A program made the position numbers and the translations under genes. From contig JAAXWC010000010.1 of assembly GCA_013335175.1 (NCBI GenBank), forward strand, positions 1-48,775: DNA of 48,775 bases, written 5' to 3'. The notes below the pieces were generated by a model. That model saw nothing but the letters and a program-made list of their open reading frames with translations, was not told the DNA's origin and ran no database searches. How positions within the stretch are numbered: the first letter of the stretch is position 1; each line of letters starts with the position of its first letter. Below are positions 7,074 to 48,775 of this stretch, in pieces. Source of the stretch: Candidatus Roizmanbacteria bacterium. GTDB lineage: Bacteria > Patescibacteriota > Microgenomatia > UBA1406 > GWC2-37-13.

Positions 7074-7815
7074 GAATATACATAAAAATGATGGCCTATT
7101 ATATCATTCCGGCGCGCGCTCTTGTCATTCCTGCTCTCTCGTCATTCCCTCGAAGGAGGGAATCCATGGGAGGAGTCTGATGCAAGGGTCGGGATGGATC
7201 CCCGCCTACGCAGGGATGACGTTGCATTGTCATTCCGGTAAGCGTTAGCGCATCCGGAATCGTTGTTCAGGCTCAACGTCGTCATTCCCTTGAACAAGGG
7301 AGTCCAGTGAATAATTTTCCTTCGATGAGACCTCTCCTAAGGTGATTGGTACTCTGGGCCCCTGCGTTCGCAGGGATGACGTTGCATTGTCATTCCGGTA
7401 AGCGTTAGCGCATCCGGAATCGTTGATCAGGCTCAACGTCGTCATTCCCTTGAACAAGGGAGTCCAGTGAATAATTTTCCTTCGATGAGACCTCTCCTAA
7501 GGTGATTGGTACTCTGGGCCCCTGCGTTCGCAGGGGTGACGTTGCATTGTCATTCCGGTAAGCGTTAGCGCATCCGGAATCGTTGTTCAGGCTCAACGTC
7601 GTCATTCCCCTGGACAGGGGAATCCAGTGTAAAAATATGCATTCGATGAGATCTCTCCTAAGGTGATTGGTACTCTGGACCCCTGCGTTCGCAGGGGTGA
7701 CGTTGCATTGTCATTCCCGCAAGTGAAGTATGAACGCGTCGGGAATCGTTGTGAAAAGGAGTAGCAATGTCACCCTTACGGTCGTCGGGCAAGCCCGGGA
7801 TGACCATATTGAGCC
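7074..7815. repeat. Tandem 160-bp repeat array of palindromic modules
   Basis: This 742-bp spacer has no gene. The word GTTGCATTGTCATTCCGGTA starts at 7221, 7381 and 7541, an exact 160-bp period, and a degenerate fourth unit starts near 7702. Each unit contains three palindromes: TTCCGGTAAGCG...GCATCCGGAA, the variable ATTCCC(C/T)TGRACARGGGA arm, and CCCCTGCGTTCGCAGGGG. The same unit lies inverted at 361-665. Copies are nearly identical, indicating recent amplification. Confidence 0.9.
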
Positions 7816-38390: not shown

Positions 38391-38411
38391 ATGTAGAATA
38401 TTATTCTACAT
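38391..38411. terminator. Perfect 9-bp hairpin after the GNAT gene
   Basis: ATGTAGAAT and ATTCTACAT pair perfectly around a 3-nt loop, 7 bp after the GNAT stop. No U-tract follows on either strand, so terminator activity is uncertain. Confidence 0.4.
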
Positions 38412-38415
38412 TCGA

Positions 38416-38541
38416 TTATCGTTTATGCAATCTTTTTTTCACGTCTTTCGTGTAGCCCACGTATAAATGATTGTCTTCGCGAGATGAAGCGTCAGACGCT
38501 TCCCTATAAGAATGAATAGAACTTGAGTGTCTGGAGAAGTC
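38416..38541 (-). pseudogene. GIY-YIG endonuclease remnant
   Basis: On the minus strand an open stretch with no ATG reads ...SREDNHLYVGYTKDVKKRLHKR and then a stop at 38416-38418. NHLYVGYTKDVKKRL is the second conserved element of UvrC-like GIY-YIG nucleases; the first GIY-like strand and everything after KRLHKR are missing. It abuts tRNA-Val, as decaying small nuclease genes next to tRNAs often do. Confidence 0.6.
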
Positions 38542-38549
38542 GAGTTTGT

Positions 38550-38622
38550 GACCGCTACAGGACTTGAACCTGTGACCTTTACAATGTCAATGTAACGCTC
38601 TAGCCAACTGAGCTAAGCGGTC
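38550..38622 (-). tRNA. tRNA-Val (GAC)
   Basis: Cloverleaf read on the minus strand: 7-bp acceptor GACCGCT/AGCGGTC, D-arm AGCTCAGTTGG, anticodon stem TTACA/TGTAA with loop TTGACAT (anticodon GAC), and a TTCAAGT T-loop. 73 nt, no encoded CCA. Confidence 0.95.
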
Positions 38623-38632
38623 AAAAAAGTGC

Positions 38633-38705
38633 GGAGCCAAGGGGACTCGAACCCCCAACCTCTGCCGTGACAGGGCAGCGCTCTAACCAGTTGAGCCATG
38701 ACTCC
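38633..38705 (-). tRNA. tRNA-Asp (GTC)
   Basis: Minus strand: acceptor GGAGTCA/TGGCTCC, anticodon stem CTGCC/GGCAG with loop CTGTCAC (anticodon GTC), T-arm GGGGG-TTCGAGT-CCCC. It lies 10 bp from tRNA-Val on the same strand and is likely co-transcribed. CCA is not encoded. Confidence 0.95.
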
Positions 38706-43767: not shown

Positions 43768-43839
43768 GCCCTTATAGCTTAATGGATAGAGTACTTGGCT
43801 TCGAACCAAGTGATGGGGGTCCGATTCCCTCTAAGGGCA
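43768..43839 (+). tRNA. tRNA-Arg (TCG)
   Basis: 72-nt cloverleaf: acceptor GCCCTTA/TAAGGGC with discriminator A, anticodon stem CTTGG/CCAAG and loop CTTCGAA (anticodon TCG), T-arm around GGTCCGATTCC. CCA is not encoded. Confidence 0.95.
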
Positions 43840-43850
43840 CACAAATAAAC

Positions 43851-45713
43851 TCAGCTCGCGCCACCTCCGCCGCCTCCCCCACCTCCACCTCCGCCGCCAG
43901 AGAAACTTCCCCCAGAACCAGTGTTTATGGAACTTGTTAAAGTAGACGAAATTTCTTGAAAACTGTTTGCAAACTCGGTCGAAAAACTAAGATTTAATCC
44001 CTGTGCAGCATCATTCAGATTACTGCCGGGAATAAAGTACCATGCGGGTACGGCGTTCATTGCCCCTTGTTGGGAAAGAATAATGGGTAAAAATTTTGCG
44101 ACCGTAGAGGCAAGACCCAGTGCCGTTCCATATACCAATATTTCCTGCCAAATGGTAAGAGCTTGGGGAAGTTCGTCTTTAAAGTGCGTAAAATCCTTTA
44201 AAAATTGTCGGAATGAACGCCATTTGAGAGCCTCCTCTGCTGCTTTTTTGTTCCAACGTAAAAATAGTCTCCCTAATAATGCACTGAGTGTAAACACCAT
44301 TACAAGGAAGAAAATCCCTACTTTGAGAAAGCCTGATGAAAGGTTAATTTTAAGCGTATAAGTGAGCACCAACAAAATGAAAGCTCCAAAGAATGTGTTT
44401 GCAATTATAAAGTAGTAGTGCCAGTGCTTTCCTTCCGGTTCAATAAAATGATGTTCTTTTGATTCATTTACGACTGCTTTTTGCCACGTTGTGAAAAAAA
44501 GGCCAGTCTCTGTTTTATGCGATTTCATCCATTCTTTAAACTCATCCATATCAACCTGTTTCTTTTCTTGAAACAAAAATCCCATGAGCAACATTTCAAA
44601 TTCAGACAATGTATCCCAAGAAGCCATTTGATAATCTGTATGGAATACATAATGGTATTTTTTTTCTGTTGAAACAAAAAGTAATCCCTTTTGATAGTAT
44701 GGTTGTGCCTCAATTTTTATATACCTACGTCGAGCAAGATCGAGGATGGTGGCGGTGAGTACATCGGTATTGGGTTTTCCTCCTTGAGAAAGAAGAACAG
44801 AAACGAGAGCTGGTTTAAGATCGCTCGGAGGGAAGTGGACATACTTTGGTATATCGGGGAACTTATATTCTTTGCCGTGCTGTTTCCATTTTTTATACCA
44901 AAAGATGATCCATCCTGCCGGTACAAACAGAAAAAATAAAAGCATGAATAAGGTACTGTTTTTTGCACGTTGTTGTTCCCCAATCTCTTCTGCCTGAATT
45001 TTTGTCAGAGCGTTTTGCGGAAGAAAAGTGCCTTCTATGAGTGACGAAGGTAGCAACTCGCGCAGTTCGACGTATTGGTTTGCAGGTAAATTTGCTACTC
45101 GAAGTACTGTCGTTCCGGTATTTGAAATGGTTATTGTTCCCTGTGGGCCATGTCCCCAGACATACACGCTCGATTTTGGAGTCTGTAACGGTGGGACAAC
45201 CGTTATTTCGACACTATCTGTTCGTGCGCCCCACTTATCACCAATAATTTTCCAGTACCATTCCGCCACATCCTGATACTTTGTAATCGCGCCTGTAAGG
45301 TGATAATTTATGAAGAATGTTTTATCTTCATTCTCAGCAGAAAAATATCCCTCTGCGTGCATAGACGTAGACGTATTGACTACCGCATAGTTTTGTACTG
45401 GTCTGTTTTCATCGGGTTCGTAGATGCGAGTATACGGCGAAAAATAACTATCTTGGACCTCTCCCACCACAACATTGCTTATTGTTTGATGTTCTGTGAT
45501 AGGTATATCCCAGTAGATCTGGCTAAAAGAGCCAGAAAACCGAAACGTTCGCTTTTCGGTAATATCTACAGAACCGTCTTTTTGAATGGTAGCTTCGATA
45601 GAGACTTTGGGAAAGTAAAATGATCGGGAAGAAGCAGAAACAGGAAGCGAAAAAAATAATAAAACAGTACAAAATAGAGCAATCAAACTAACATATTGCA
45701 GATAGTGTTTCAT
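43851..45713 (-). CDS. DUF2207 membrane protein with glycine-rich tail
   Basis: A 620-residue protein. A signal peptide (about 1-27) is followed by an extracellular beta domain typical of DUF2207 (SIEATIQKDGSVDITEKRTFRFSG, FSQIYWDIPI). After a membrane helix (about 255-275) comes a cytoplasmic part with PPSDLKPALVSVLLSQGG and TATILDLARRRYIKIE, then two more membrane helices (about 430-480). The C-terminus is a glycine run (GGGG... AS), as is common in this family. The function is unknown. It starts 6 bp after the mntP stop, so the two form an operon. Confidence 0.85.
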   Translation of the reverse strand: MKHYLQYVSLIALFCTVLLFFSLPVSASSRSFYFPKVSIEATIQKDGSVDITEKRTFRFSGSFSQIYWDIPITEHQTISNVVVGEVQDSYFSPYTRIYEPDENRPVQNYAVVNTSTSMHAEGYFSAENEDKTFFINYHLTGAITKYQDVAEWYWKIIGDKWGARTDSVEITVVPPLQTPKSSVYVWGHGPQGTITISNTGTTVLRVANLPANQYVELRELLPSSLIEGTFLPQNALTKIQAEEIGEQQRAKNSTLFMLLFFLFVPAGWIIFWYKKWKQHGKEYKFPDIPKYVHFPPSDLKPALVSVLLSQGGKPNTDVLTATILDLARRRYIKIEAQPYYQKGLLFVSTEKKYHYVFHTDYQMASWDTLSEFEMLLMGFLFQEKKQVDMDEFKEWMKSHKTETGLFFTTWQKAVVNESKEHHFIEPEGKHWHYYFIIANTFFGAFILLVLTYTLKINLSSGFLKVGIFFLVMVFTLSALLGRLFLRWNKKAAEEALKWRSFRQFLKDFTHFKDELPQALTIWQEILVYGTALGLASTVAKFLPIILSQQGAMNAVPAWYFIPGSNLNDAAQGLNLSFSTEFANSFQEISSTLTSSINTGSGGSFSGGGGGGGGGGGGGAS

Positions 45714-45719
45714 AGTATG

Positions 45720-46277
45720 CTACGAAAAGAACAAATGTTCTATCAATATTTTAATTCCAATACAAATAAGTACAGCACCACCAATAATTTTCACCTTGTT
45801 TTGGCATACGTTTTTTAGCCTGTCCCCTGCTGAATAACCGGTAAAAGCGGTTATAAAAGTGGTAATTGCGATAATGGCTACATTTTGCAGGATAGGTTGT
45901 TTTAAAAATGCAAGCGTTATGCCCACCACTAAGGCGTCTATACTTGTTGCAATAATCAAAAAGAGCAGCGATCTTATTTTTAAAGTACCCTTTTTTTTGT
46001 TACAGAGTTCAGTATCTCGGGAGTCTCGTATCATGTTGAGGCCAATTCCTCCGAGAAGAAAAAAAGCAATCCAATGGTCTACCCCACTTACAAAACCGCT
46101 AAAACCTATTCCAAGCAAAGATCCAATCAGAGCCATTCCTGCCTGGCCGATTGCAAAGCACAACCCAATGAGTACAGATCGAAGTAATGTTGTATTCAGA
46201 CTTGTGGCGCCTTCGACGACAGCTACAGAAAATGTGTCAAAATTAAGGCTTATCGCAATTAGGAATGGCAGGAGCAT
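45720..46277 (-). CDS. mntP: Manganese efflux pump MntP
   Basis: A 185-residue, six-helix membrane protein. The two internally repeated halves carry the acidic residues of the MntP/YebN family: ISLNFDTFSVAVVEGA near the start and IATSIDALVVGITLAFL in the second half, with HWIAFFLLGGIGLNMI between them. It exports Mn2+. The frame runs 36 residues further upstream but MLLPFLIAISLNFD fits the family; TACAAT (minus strand, 46284-46289) lies 6 nt before that ATG and would be inside the longer frame. Confidence 0.85.
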   Translation of the reverse strand: MLLPFLIAISLNFDTFSVAVVEGATSLNTTLLRSVLIGLCFAIGQAGMALIGSLLGIGFSGFVSGVDHWIAFFLLGGIGLNMIRDSRDTELCNKKKGTLKIRSLLFLIIATSIDALVVGITLAFLKQPILQNVAIIAITTFITAFTGYSAGDRLKNVCQNKVKIIGGAVLICIGIKILIEHLFFS

Positions 46278-46283
46278 GATTTT

Positions 46284-46289
46284 ATTGTA
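46284..46289 (-). promoter_or_regulatory. -10 box of the mntP-DUF2207 operon
   Basis: TACAAT, minus strand, 6 nt before the chosen mntP ATG. I see no obvious Mn-riboswitch-like leader; with this promoter there would be none. Confidence 0.4.
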
Positions 46290-46369
46290 ACAGATGAAAC
46301 ATATTTTTAAGCGATTCTTCAGAAACGCTTGATAGCATGAACATAACACGATAAACACAAAATGGCACG

Positions 46370-46495
46370 TTTGATACCGTTGCAAGGACGTCCCCGCCTT
46401 GGATCACAGTCCGGGACAGGCTCCGACGGGGATCCATGGTTAGTGTAACCATATGAGAGATGGATTCCCCTTTCCAGGGGAATGACGAACAAACC
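46370..46495. repeat. Dispersed intergenic repeat element
   Basis: Contains CAGTCCGGGACAGGCTCCGA and GGATCCATG words shared with 290-350 and the TGGATTCCCCTTTCCAGGGG arm shared with the 160-bp unit. No gene. Confidence 0.7.
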
Positions 46496-46548
46496 TGTCA
46501 GTCTGTTTTGAGATTGGTATATTACGATTTTGTTAAAATTCACTAACT

Positions 46549-47328
46549 ATGTATCTCCGTAAAATTATATTCAAAGTTATAGCCTTCATTTTCTTTTTTT
46601 CTATCGTTTTTTTTGGTATTCGATATTTTAATTTGCTTCCACAGGAAAAGCTGAATCAAAATATTAACTCAATACCATGGTTATTTTCTGCGATTAGCCT
46701 AGTATTTAGCATTTTGTCTGGTTTTGTTATTCAATCGAAATGGCAAACATGGGATTCACTTATAGACGCCATTCGTGGCGAGTTGAGTGCATTCCGCCAA
46801 TTAAATATATTGGCAAATCATCTGCCAGAAGCTCGGCAACAGAAAATGAGATATGAGATATGTAACTATCTTGATCTTCTCATTCATGATCCATGGGAAA
46901 ATCAGGATAAAGGTATTCGTTCAGAAAAAATTGAAAAGGCTTTAACACAATTAGAAGATTTCATTTTTACCGAATCGAATAAAGCTTCAGGAATTGGGCA
47001 TATAGCATTTGAATTATTAAGCAAAATTATGGAATGTCGCGAACAAAGACTGCAAAATAGTGGCCGGCATATGCCGGTAATGCTTCGCGCTTTTATTATT
47101 TTGGCAACCTATACGATTATCTTTACTTCGTTATTTATTGGTGTGAATACCATTTCCTATGATTATATTTTTACCGTTTTAATAGCTTTGCTTTCCTACG
47201 GTATTTATCTGCTTATAGATGATCTGGATCATCCATATCGACCGGGAAACTGGCATGTGAAAAATGATGAATACAAAGCATTTTTATCGGAGGTCAGCGA
47301 AAAATGCGGGTATGTTATTGCGAGGTAG
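46549..47328 (+). CDS. Bestrophin-like (DUF4239-type) membrane protein
   Basis: A 259-residue protein with four predicted membrane helices: two near the N-terminus (about 7-27 and 43-62) and two in the C-terminal part (about 183-205 and 208-225). Between them is a helical cytoplasmic segment (RGELSAFRQLNILANHLPEARQQ). The layout and the end LLIDDLDHPYRPGNWHV recall the DUF4239/bestrophin-like family (conserved D-x-D-x-P-F/Y). Channel function is not established. TAAAAT ends 9 nt before the ATG. Its end overlaps the convergent 47315 gene by 14 bp. Confidence 0.6.
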   Translation: MYLRKIIFKVIAFIFFFSIVFFGIRYFNLLPQEKLNQNINSIPWLFSAISLVFSILSGFVIQSKWQTWDSLIDAIRGELSAFRQLNILANHLPEARQQKMRYEICNYLDLLIHDPWENQDKGIRSEKIEKALTQLEDFIFTESNKASGIGHIAFELLSKIMECREQRLQNSGRHMPVMLRAFIILATYTIIFTSLFIGVNTISYDYIFTVLIALLSYGIYLLIDDLDHPYRPGNWHVKNDEYKAFLSEVSEKCGYVIAR

Positions 47329-47914
47329 GATCCGGGAAAAGAAGTTCTTGCTTAAGCACATGGACTTTTTCAAGGAATTCTGGTGTTAATCTCGGAGGAT
47401 ATAAGCTAGCCAACTCCATGGTTTTTTGACGAATATCATTTGATAAGGCTGATTCTTCTCCCGGTATTCCAGCATTTTGATCTGGGAGAAATACGGTTGA
47501 TTTTCTCTCGCCTGTTTTAGGGTCTAAGAGTCTTAAACCACTAAAATAAGCTACATTTATTCCTTGTTTTACAGGTTGAAAAGTATTAGAAAGGGGAAGC
47601 GATTTTTCTTTTGTTAGTTGTTTTCTCCAAAACAAAATCTCATAAAGCAGTTGATCTGCTATTTCTTCTCCTAAACCATAACGATGGATAGAAACATAGG
47701 AGGTTCCTAAATATTCAAGTAGCTGTTGAATTCTTTCCTCTAATTGCGCCTGGGTGTCTATTCCATTTGCGAGATCTCTGCTTAAATCATTATATCGCGT
47801 TGCAGCCTGTTGAAATGTAGTTATTGTTGAAAAAGTCTTCTCTTCGATACATATAAGATCTCGTTTTCTTGGGGCAGGGAGTGGGGGAACAGAATAATCC
47901 TCTTTCTTGCTCAT
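47315..47914 (-). CDS. Hypothetical protein, 199 residues
   Basis: A soluble protein with a charged N-terminus (MSKKEDYSVPPLPAPRKRDL), a helical middle (TQAQLEERIQQLLEYLG, EIADQLLYEILFWRKQL) and a segment LRLLDPKTGERKSTVFLPDQ. I recognise no family and no catalytic residues. TACCAT (minus strand, 47921-47926) lies 6 nt before the ATG, a weak match to the leaderless pattern of the window. Convergent with the DUF4239-like gene. Confidence 0.6.
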   Translation of the reverse strand: MSKKEDYSVPPLPAPRKRDLICIEEKTFSTITTFQQAATRYNDLSRDLANGIDTQAQLEERIQQLLEYLGTSYVSIHRYGLGEEIADQLLYEILFWRKQLTKEKSLPLSNTFQPVKQGINVAYFSGLRLLDPKTGERKSTVFLPDQNAGIPGEESALSNDIRQKTMELASLYPPRLTPEFLEKVHVLKQELLFPDPTSQ

Positions 47915-47929
47915 GCGAATATGGTACCC

Positions 47930-48480
47930 GCCCTTATTAAGAATGTCAATAGGTACTATTCGGCTTTCCGGACTTGCACGAGAATGGCGGCGTCCCCGTG
48001 CACGCGGAGCGATAAGCGAGCTAGGTGCGGGGAGACTTCGAGTGACAGGACACCCTTCTTTTTGAACGGTGGGATTGCTTCGTCATTTCACTCCTTGCAA
48101 TGACTAACAAACGTCATCCCGAACTTGCACGCCATGGCGGCGACAGCCATGCGGCATCGCAGGGCATGCCAGGGATCTGGGATCTATTCAATAATGCATA
48201 CGATGAAATCAATCAAGCGGTAAAATTAAATAGATTCCGGATCACGCTCATTCTATTCGCTGTCCGGAATGACGACGCTACTCCCTTTTCACAACGATTT
48301 CCCTCGACCACATGCCCTTTTTCATACGGGGACTTCTTTACGGTCGCCCGACAAGCGGCAATGACAAACAAACGTCATCCTCGGACAAGTCTGTCGAGAC
48401 GACAGACGCCGATCCGGGGATCCAGTTGAAAATTATACCTCTGGATTCCCCTGTTCAGGGGAATGACGAACAAACCACAA
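47930..48480. repeat. Dispersed repeat cluster, gene-free
   Basis: No credible gene in this stretch of about 550 bp. Recognisable modules: GCACGCCATGGCGGCGACA and GCGGCATCGCAGGGCATGCC (as at 205-250), AATAGATTCCGGATC, and the TGGATTCCCCTGTTCAGGGG arm at about 48441-48465. Frames here encode only repeat-type peptides. Confidence 0.8.
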
Positions 48481-48508
48481 AACCAGGTCGATAAAATCAA
48501 AACCGGGT

Positions 48509-48537
48509 TTGAATTAACGTGATTGAGATCGTATAAT
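48509..48537 (+). promoter_or_regulatory. Sigma-70-like promoter of the right-edge tandem array
   Basis: TTGAAT (48509-48514), 17-bp spacer, TATAAT (48532-48537). The expected start of transcription is near 48544, a few bases before the first repeat unit. Confidence 0.65.
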
Positions 48538-48549
48538 ACAATACAGAAA

Positions 48550-48775
48550 GGATCCGTAGCTCAATTGGTAGTCCGCCGAAGTGGCGGGCTTAACCAGCAT
48601 CGGGGACGGTTATTAAAAATAGGATCCGTAGCTCAGTTGGTAGTCCGCCGAAGTGGCGGGCTTAACCAGCAGCGGGGACGGTTATTAAATAGGATCCGTA
48701 GCTCAGTTGGTAGTCCGCCGAAGTGGCGGGCTTAACCAGCAGCGGGGACGGTTATTAAATAGGATCCGTAGCTCA
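48550..48775 (+). repeat. Tandem 70-bp array with tRNA D-arm-like units (possible non-coding RNA)
   Basis: Units start with GGATCCGTAGCTCA at 48550, 48622, 48692 and 48762 (periods 72, 70, 70; last unit cut by the edge). Units 2 and 3 are identical. Each begins like the 5' part of a tRNA (GTAGCTCAGTTGGTAG), then forms a strong 7-bp hairpin GTCCGCC-GAAGT-GGCGGGC and a second stem TAACC...GGTTA. There is no TTC-type T-arm and no matching D-stem or acceptor, so the units are not ordinary tRNAs. Confidence 0.8.

Follow-up and report, generated by a model that had tools for sequence, protein, structure and literature searches.

A tandem array of tRNA-Lys fragments upstream of an intact tRNA-Lys(CTT) gene in a Candidatus Roizmanbacteria genome and its resemblance to tRNA-flanking GIY-YIG elements

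In the gene-duplicating endonuclease elements of mitochondria, such as the one at atp6 of Allomyces, an ORF is inserted together with a copy of the displaced part of the gene, and the gene is rebuilt. REP/BIME sequences with RAYT are small palindromes tied to a single nuclease gene, and they include ORF-less copies and tandem clusters. SegB is a free-standing GIY-YIG homing endonuclease of T-even phages, for which the source used here cites Brok-Volchanskaya et al. 2008 (PMC13096335). Tandem amplification of its tRNA segment requires SegB together with the recombination genes of the phage (PMC13096335). In the insertions of CPR rRNA genes, GIY-YIG proteins are found outside known introns, and most of the other unclassified insertions have a small size (<200 bp) where they lack an ORF (PMC11270868). 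The main text of that paper does not mention tRNA.

The window, i.e., the whole stretch of DNA analyzed (48,775 nucleotides of a Candidatus Roizmanbacteria bacterium), belongs to contig C27 of genome G000 (1.45 Mb, 46 contigs). Positions 48549-48775 form a tandem repeat with a period of 70, 3.2 copies, 97% matches, and a score of 422 in Tandem Repeats Finder. The features are listed in Table 1. In each unit, tRNA-Lys nt 1-22 is followed by the hairpin TCCGCCGAAGTGGCGGG and then by the second tRNA piece CTTAACCAGC (tRNA nt ~33-42); a short leader rich in A and T, AGCGGGGACGGTTATTAAATA, comes last. Apart from the 22-nt tRNA 5' end, the remaining core of the unit is 48 bp. In unit 1, the D-loop reads CAATTGG, as in the intact gene, and the leader is longer; in the inner units, the D-loop reads CAGTTGG. 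The hairpin TCCGCC-GAAGT-GGCGG is present in all three full units, while 0.04 matches are expected in the window. No ORF, GIY-YIG match, or GIY-YIG remnant was found within the array itself. The repeats are almost certainly a tandem array of fragments derived from a tRNA-Lys gene.

Table 1. Features of the array and of its upstream region in the window.
Feature	Position	Strand	Description
Sigma-70-like promoter (predicted)	48509..48537	+	TTGAAT (48509-48514), 17 bp, TATAAT (48532-48537); consensus scan 10/12
Unit 1	48550..48621	+	72 bp: nt 1-22 of tRNA-Lys without change from the intact gene, then hairpin, CTTAACCAGC, leader
Unit 2	48622..48691	+	70 bp
Unit 3	48692..48761	+	70 bp, identical to unit 2
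Partial unit 4	48762..48775	+	Truncated at the 100-N scaffold gap (contig 48776-48875)
Junction hairpin TCCGCC-GAAGT-GGCGGG	48572..48588 (unit 1)	+	Also at 48644-48660 and 48714-48730
CTTAACCAGC	48589..48598	+	10 nt matching tRNA-Lys(CTT) nt ~33-42, in every unit; the tRNA resumes after the hairpin

An earlier, sequence-only reading had described three full units and one partial unit with a 70-72-bp period, two of them identical, each beginning like a tRNA. This description holds, with tRNA-Lys as the source of the beginning. For the remainder of the unit, that reading had proposed a 7-bp hairpin and a second stem in place of the anticodon and T arms. The hairpin is present, and what follows it is the second piece of the tRNA. 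The array had also been thought to run off the edge, and extension of the contig to the right had been proposed. There are indeed more units beyond the edge, which is the start of a scaffold gap of 100 N. Past the gap, this contig carries the end of one unit and then a complete unit (48919-48988). Next comes an intact tRNA-Lys(CTT) gene (48989-49062), which scores 68.7 bits as a tRNA. Of the earlier options, a decayed or amplified array of tRNA fragments was the right one; the units are pieces of tRNA-Lys in front of the intact gene. A broken tRNA gene had also been considered, but the gene itself is not broken, since the array leads into an intact copy. The copy number of the array is at least three, or five if the scaffold is read literally, a count that is not trustworthy across the gap.

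The genome survey found 47 distinct tRNA genes. Since each anticodon except Met occurs only once, this tRNA-Lys(CTT) gene is the only copy in the genome. A copy of a part of its T-arm, GGGTTCGAGTCCC, is located a short way 3' of the tRNA. The array starts 12 bp past the TTGAAT-17-TATAAT sequence and sits between it and the tRNA-Lys gene. The candidate promoter, seen already in the sequence-only reading, was recovered by the consensus scan; chance alone would give about one site with such a score in this 1 kb of sequence, but the candidate directly precedes the tRNA start. Because the array leads into the intact tRNA-Lys(CTT), the predicted promoter is most simply the tRNA promoter, which would serve the array and, by read-through, tRNA-Lys(CTT).

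The window genome contains other duplications of this kind. Upstream of 10 of the 47 tRNA genes, the 5' end of the gene is present a second time as an exact copy (16-51 nt; 22 nt in the window array), compared with 5 of 2162 non-self pairings, all five of which involve neighbouring tRNAs or the two Pro genes. Small GIY-YIG ORFs (PF01541) are located between the broken 5' copy and the gene at Lys(TTT), Pro(GGG), and Gln(CTG). At three of the ten sites, the encoded GIY-YIG nuclease has its stop codon inside the tRNA. Gln(CTG) has two different GIY-YIG ORFs in series, and such a stacked series is what repeated insertion into a rebuilt gene would leave. Five of the 12 GIY-YIG matches in the genome are near tRNAs, and the remainder are not. 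In the flanks of G004, G007, and G010, 0, 3, and 1 self 5' copies were found, respectively, and therefore the density in the window genome is unusual.

The Leu genes have units of 157-160 bp, in up to three tandem copies. A hairpin of 46-50 nt, CTCAACTGTCCG...CGGACAGTTAG, was observed inside broken copies of tRNA-Leu (G000:C2, C32, and C23; L054, L056, L058, and L020), and also near Tyr, Leu, and Gly tRNAs in relatives (L069, L072, and L077). Its stem covaries: four of the 10 pairs are changed on both sides, 98.6% are paired, and the covariation score was reached in none of 500 shuffles. This hairpin has no Rfam match in the loci scanned. As the arrays of Leu-tRNA carry this different 50-nt hairpin, more than one type of element may exist. 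Three further observations concern the same genome. Immediately downstream of the tRNA-Asp/tRNA-Val pair (38548-38705) of the window, a GIY-YIG remnant at 38404-38484 (-) is decayed and contains one stop codon. Another tandem array, with 3.2 copies of a 160-bp unit with GTCATTCCGG-type sequence, is located at 7209-7717. At G000:C37:3648-3709, a 36-nt exact 3' piece of tRNA-Ala(CGC) is found beside tRNA-Ile(TAT), ~4 kb from the tRNA-Ala gene; it is possibly the scar of a larger element.

Non-redundant pairs of GIY-YIG and tRNA genes within 400 bp were collected from a genome-wide scan and from same-family genomes. In the Patescibacteria-like and Bacteroidota loci, the two neighbours are on the same strand in 91 of 91 pairs and opposed in none, a figure that is biased because the scan query came from tRNA-associated proteins, and that describes the class rather than all GIY-YIG genes. 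The nuclease gene precedes the tRNA in 36 pairs and follows it in 55. Fragments of tRNA of at least 14 nt are present on the expected far side of the ORF in 22 of the former and 27 of the latter; shuffles gave none. Half of the upstream-type ORFs (18/36) stop inside the tRNA, mostly with TAG at nt 8-9. The tRNA breakpoints are mostly at nt 13-44 for 5' pieces and nt 43-65 for 3' pieces. The broken tRNA end carries inverted repeats at the junction, for example TCCGCC-n-GGCGGA, TCCCGA-n-TCGGGA, and TTCCGA-n-TCGGAA. Of 69 fragment junctions, 40 have a perfect palindrome, compared with 6% of shuffles; in 26, the tRNA resumes past the palindrome. The hairpin of the window, with its 5-bp stem and 5-nt loop, is less perfect than most of these palindromes. 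As to how the intact copy would escape cutting, the sequence beside the hairpin shows no recoding of the 3' side of the anticodon arm.

Tandem amplification is also seen with the nuclease gene. In G004, an intact ORF and a tRNA-Ser 5' end recur in at least 13 identical units of 357 bp; the contig breaks inside the array, and a partial GIY-YIG copy and a tRNA are at the end of another contig. In Ferruginibacter, five identical 365-bp units with intact ORFs follow tRNA-Asp. At a further locus (L210, G023:C22), a GIY-YIG gene lies upstream of a tRNA-His/tRNA-Arg pair, and matches 386 bp apart suggest a tandem duplication.

Sites with and without the ORF are observed across genera. A GIY-YIG ORF is present between tRNA-Arg(TCG) and tRNA-Lys(CTT) in G036, G016, G007, and G010, and the same pair is empty (7-63 bp) in G012, G072, G001, and G075; these genomes are mostly of different genera rather than sister strains. 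At tRNA-Lys(TTT), only the tRNA could be aligned between occupied and empty loci, with no synteny of the empty site at the nucleotide level. In the window, ~5 kb with several genes (43768-48775) parts tRNA-Arg(TCG) from tRNA-Lys(CTT), and the two are within 80 bp in several relatives. The open literature, with subscription journals and preprints mostly outside the scope of the search, yielded no account of GIY-YIG elements that flank tRNA genes on the chromosomes of bacteria. The class is apparently widespread and without an earlier description that we could find.

The closest parallels to the window unit are found at tRNA-Lys genes. The GIY-YIG elements of G021 and G011 at tRNA-Lys(TTT) consist of tRNA nt 1-23, TCCGCCAGYTGGCGGA, tRNA from nt 32 onwards, and then the nuclease gene. 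The window unit has the same layout without the nuclease gene, and it is chiefly this layout that ties the array to the nuclease elements. When 380 genomes of the phylum were searched for the D-arm followed by the window hairpin, three more genomes were found, with two reported matches each, and the reversed control pattern gave none. The matches in all three are tRNA-Lys genes. In these genomes, the intact tRNA lies between the 5' half and the 3' half of a broken one, and the halves carry the same hairpin within direct repeats of 31-53 bp. In G404, two identical ORF-less units of 91 bp precede tRNA-Lys(CTT), and a GIY-YIG ORF and then a 3' half-tRNA with the same hairpin follow it. By its layout, this is the arrangement of the window with the predicted nuclease still present on the other side of the tRNA. 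The ORF-less array of G404 is at the same tRNA as that of the window, in another family. The 70-bp unit itself, which the sequence-only reading had proposed to look for in related genomes, was not found among 144 relatives, and tandem D-arms closer than the tRNA spacing were seen only in the window genome when these relatives were searched. Viral contigs gave no match to the unit or to the pattern of D-arm and hairpin.

These comparisons suggest that the array is probably the 5' end of a tRNA-splitting homing element which brings along an intact copy of the tRNA, in a form that has no ORF here and is amplified in tandem. The general form of such an element would be a half-tRNA ending in a short palindrome, a small GIY-YIG gene, an intact tRNA, and often the other half-tRNA. 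An element in the tRNA-Lys(CTT) gene would split the gene and keep one intact copy in place. The nuclease would cut the uninvaded tRNA gene, and repair from the element-bearing chromosome would copy the element in; the original tRNA would be broken, and the element would supply the replacement. At the window locus, a nuclease gene would once have been present and then lost, and the 48-bp core would have been amplified head to tail with the 22-nt tRNA 5' end. The amplification may have proceeded via recombination between the repeated tRNA 5' ends, or via successive rounds in which the intact copy was cut and repaired. The predicted promoter would transcribe the array into the intact tRNA, and RNase P is expected to cut at the tRNA 5' end.

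The window locus has the copy of its own tRNA 5' end and the palindrome with the resumed tRNA, and it has no GIY-YIG ORF between the fragment and the intact tRNA. Because neither a GIY-YIG ORF nor its remnant is present in the array, the array is linked to the nuclease elements by anatomy and not by homology of the core. It is not classified as a member of the GIY-YIG homing elements, since the defining ORF is missing at the locus; it rather resembles the ORF-less remains of such an element.

A plain minisatellite would need no mobile element. The tRNA-Lys gene would have been duplicated, the copy would have decayed by an internal deletion and the insertion of the hairpin, and unequal crossing-over would have multiplied it. 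The two tRNA pieces in order within the unit and the lack of an ORF are compatible with such a history. The 22-nt repeats and the identical inner units suit unequal recombination, and in this loose sense the earlier suggestion of a recombination substrate also holds. ORF-less 5' arrays with unrelated cores are found at other tRNAs, such as tRNA-Tyr in G075. However, the anatomy of split tRNA and palindrome occurs with nuclease ORFs at the same tRNA and at other tRNAs in several families, and with exact 5' copies, 10 of the 47 tRNAs of a single genome are too many for chance duplications. The minisatellite is considered unlikely, although it keeps appreciable weight.

A functional non-coding RNA or a regulatory leader is improbable. 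In such a role, the repeated half-tRNAs could tune the expression of tRNA-Lys, or RNase P, a tRNA-processing enzyme, or lysyl-tRNA synthetase could bind them as decoys. The predicted promoter is directly upstream, any synthesis of tRNA-Lys from that promoter would require transcription through the array, and the whole unit folds better than shuffles (z -3.2). However, the part not derived from the tRNA, taken by itself, shows no folding advantage over shuffles (z -0.2), the unit is not conserved in relatives, and many relatives have tRNA-Lys without an array. The sequence-only reading had offered a new repeated non-coding RNA, and this is unsupported, given a hairpin that resembles the junction palindromes of other tRNA-flanking elements in a unit absent from relatives. 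Its proposed check of the unit with tRNA and covariance-model searches was negative: neither ARAGORN nor Rfam (RF00005) calls the array units tRNA, and no other Rfam RNA matched the unit. The window contains no intron family at Rfam gathering scores, and at E up to 1, no intron family was found in 8 related tRNA loci (Rfam 15). As identities of the unit, a tRNA, an intron, and an integrase scar were ruled out by ARAGORN/Rfam, the intron families, and the lack of an integrase in the interval, respectively.

tRNA genes are the classic integration sites, and serial integration of satellites at the tRNA gene could have duplicated a part of it, leaving attachment-site scars. In favour of this origin, each repeat directly copies one end of a tRNA. 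However, the units are only 70 bp, the interval has no integrase, the genes at such junctions are GIY-YIG nucleases, and the 5' end is repeated, whereas tyrosine integrases usually use the 3' end or the anticodon loop. This origin is very improbable. A mis-assembled or chimeric contig end is hardly credible: the array does break at the scaffold gap, across which its copy number is doubtful, but units are present on both sides of the gap, unit 1 differs from the others at several bases, and comparable arrays are found at other tRNAs and in other genomes.

Returning to the homing element, a broader and more tentative proposal is that these elements may form a class of selfish elements, widespread in bacteria, that act as natural home-and-rescue drives on essential single-copy tRNA genes, in which a minimal GIY-YIG nuclease breaks the tRNA gene, the element replaces it, palindromes mark the cuts, and non-autonomous ORF-less copies form tandem arrays like that of the window. 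If so, essential tRNA genes of Patescibacteria and Bacteroidota would have been captured repeatedly, the host would depend on the element-borne copy, and engineered home-and-rescue gene drives would have a counterpart in nature. Such capture would also give a plausible role to some of the many small proteins annotated as GIY-YIG nuclease family proteins in these phyla and explain why fragments of tRNA and breaks in assemblies occur near their tRNA genes.

Among the known systems, the Allomyces atp6-type elements are similar in combining an endonuclease ORF with a copy of a gene part that restores the gene. They are in mitochondrial protein genes, whereas the present elements are in bacterial tRNA genes, and we know of no junction palindromes in them. 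REP/BIME sequences share the palindromes, the single nuclease gene, the ORF-less copies, and the clusters; however, RAYTs are relatives of HUH transposases, whereas the present nucleases are of the GIY-YIG family and the palindromes are at tRNA breakpoints. The insertions of CPR rRNA genes share the CPR host and the presence of GIY-YIG in insertions within stable-RNA genes, but they interrupt the rRNA in place, whereas the tRNA elements leave an intact copy beside the broken halves (PMC11270868). SegB differs in being a phage gene, for which the account in the source describes no half-tRNA or palindrome borders (PMC13096335), whereas the present elements are chromosomal and bracketed by both; the window copy, moreover, has no nuclease. 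The likeness is in the GIY-YIG gene beside tRNA genes and in the amplification of a tRNA segment via short-homology recombination after cutting (PMC13096335). SegB is a tested precedent for the amplification step proposed for the array (PMC13096335).
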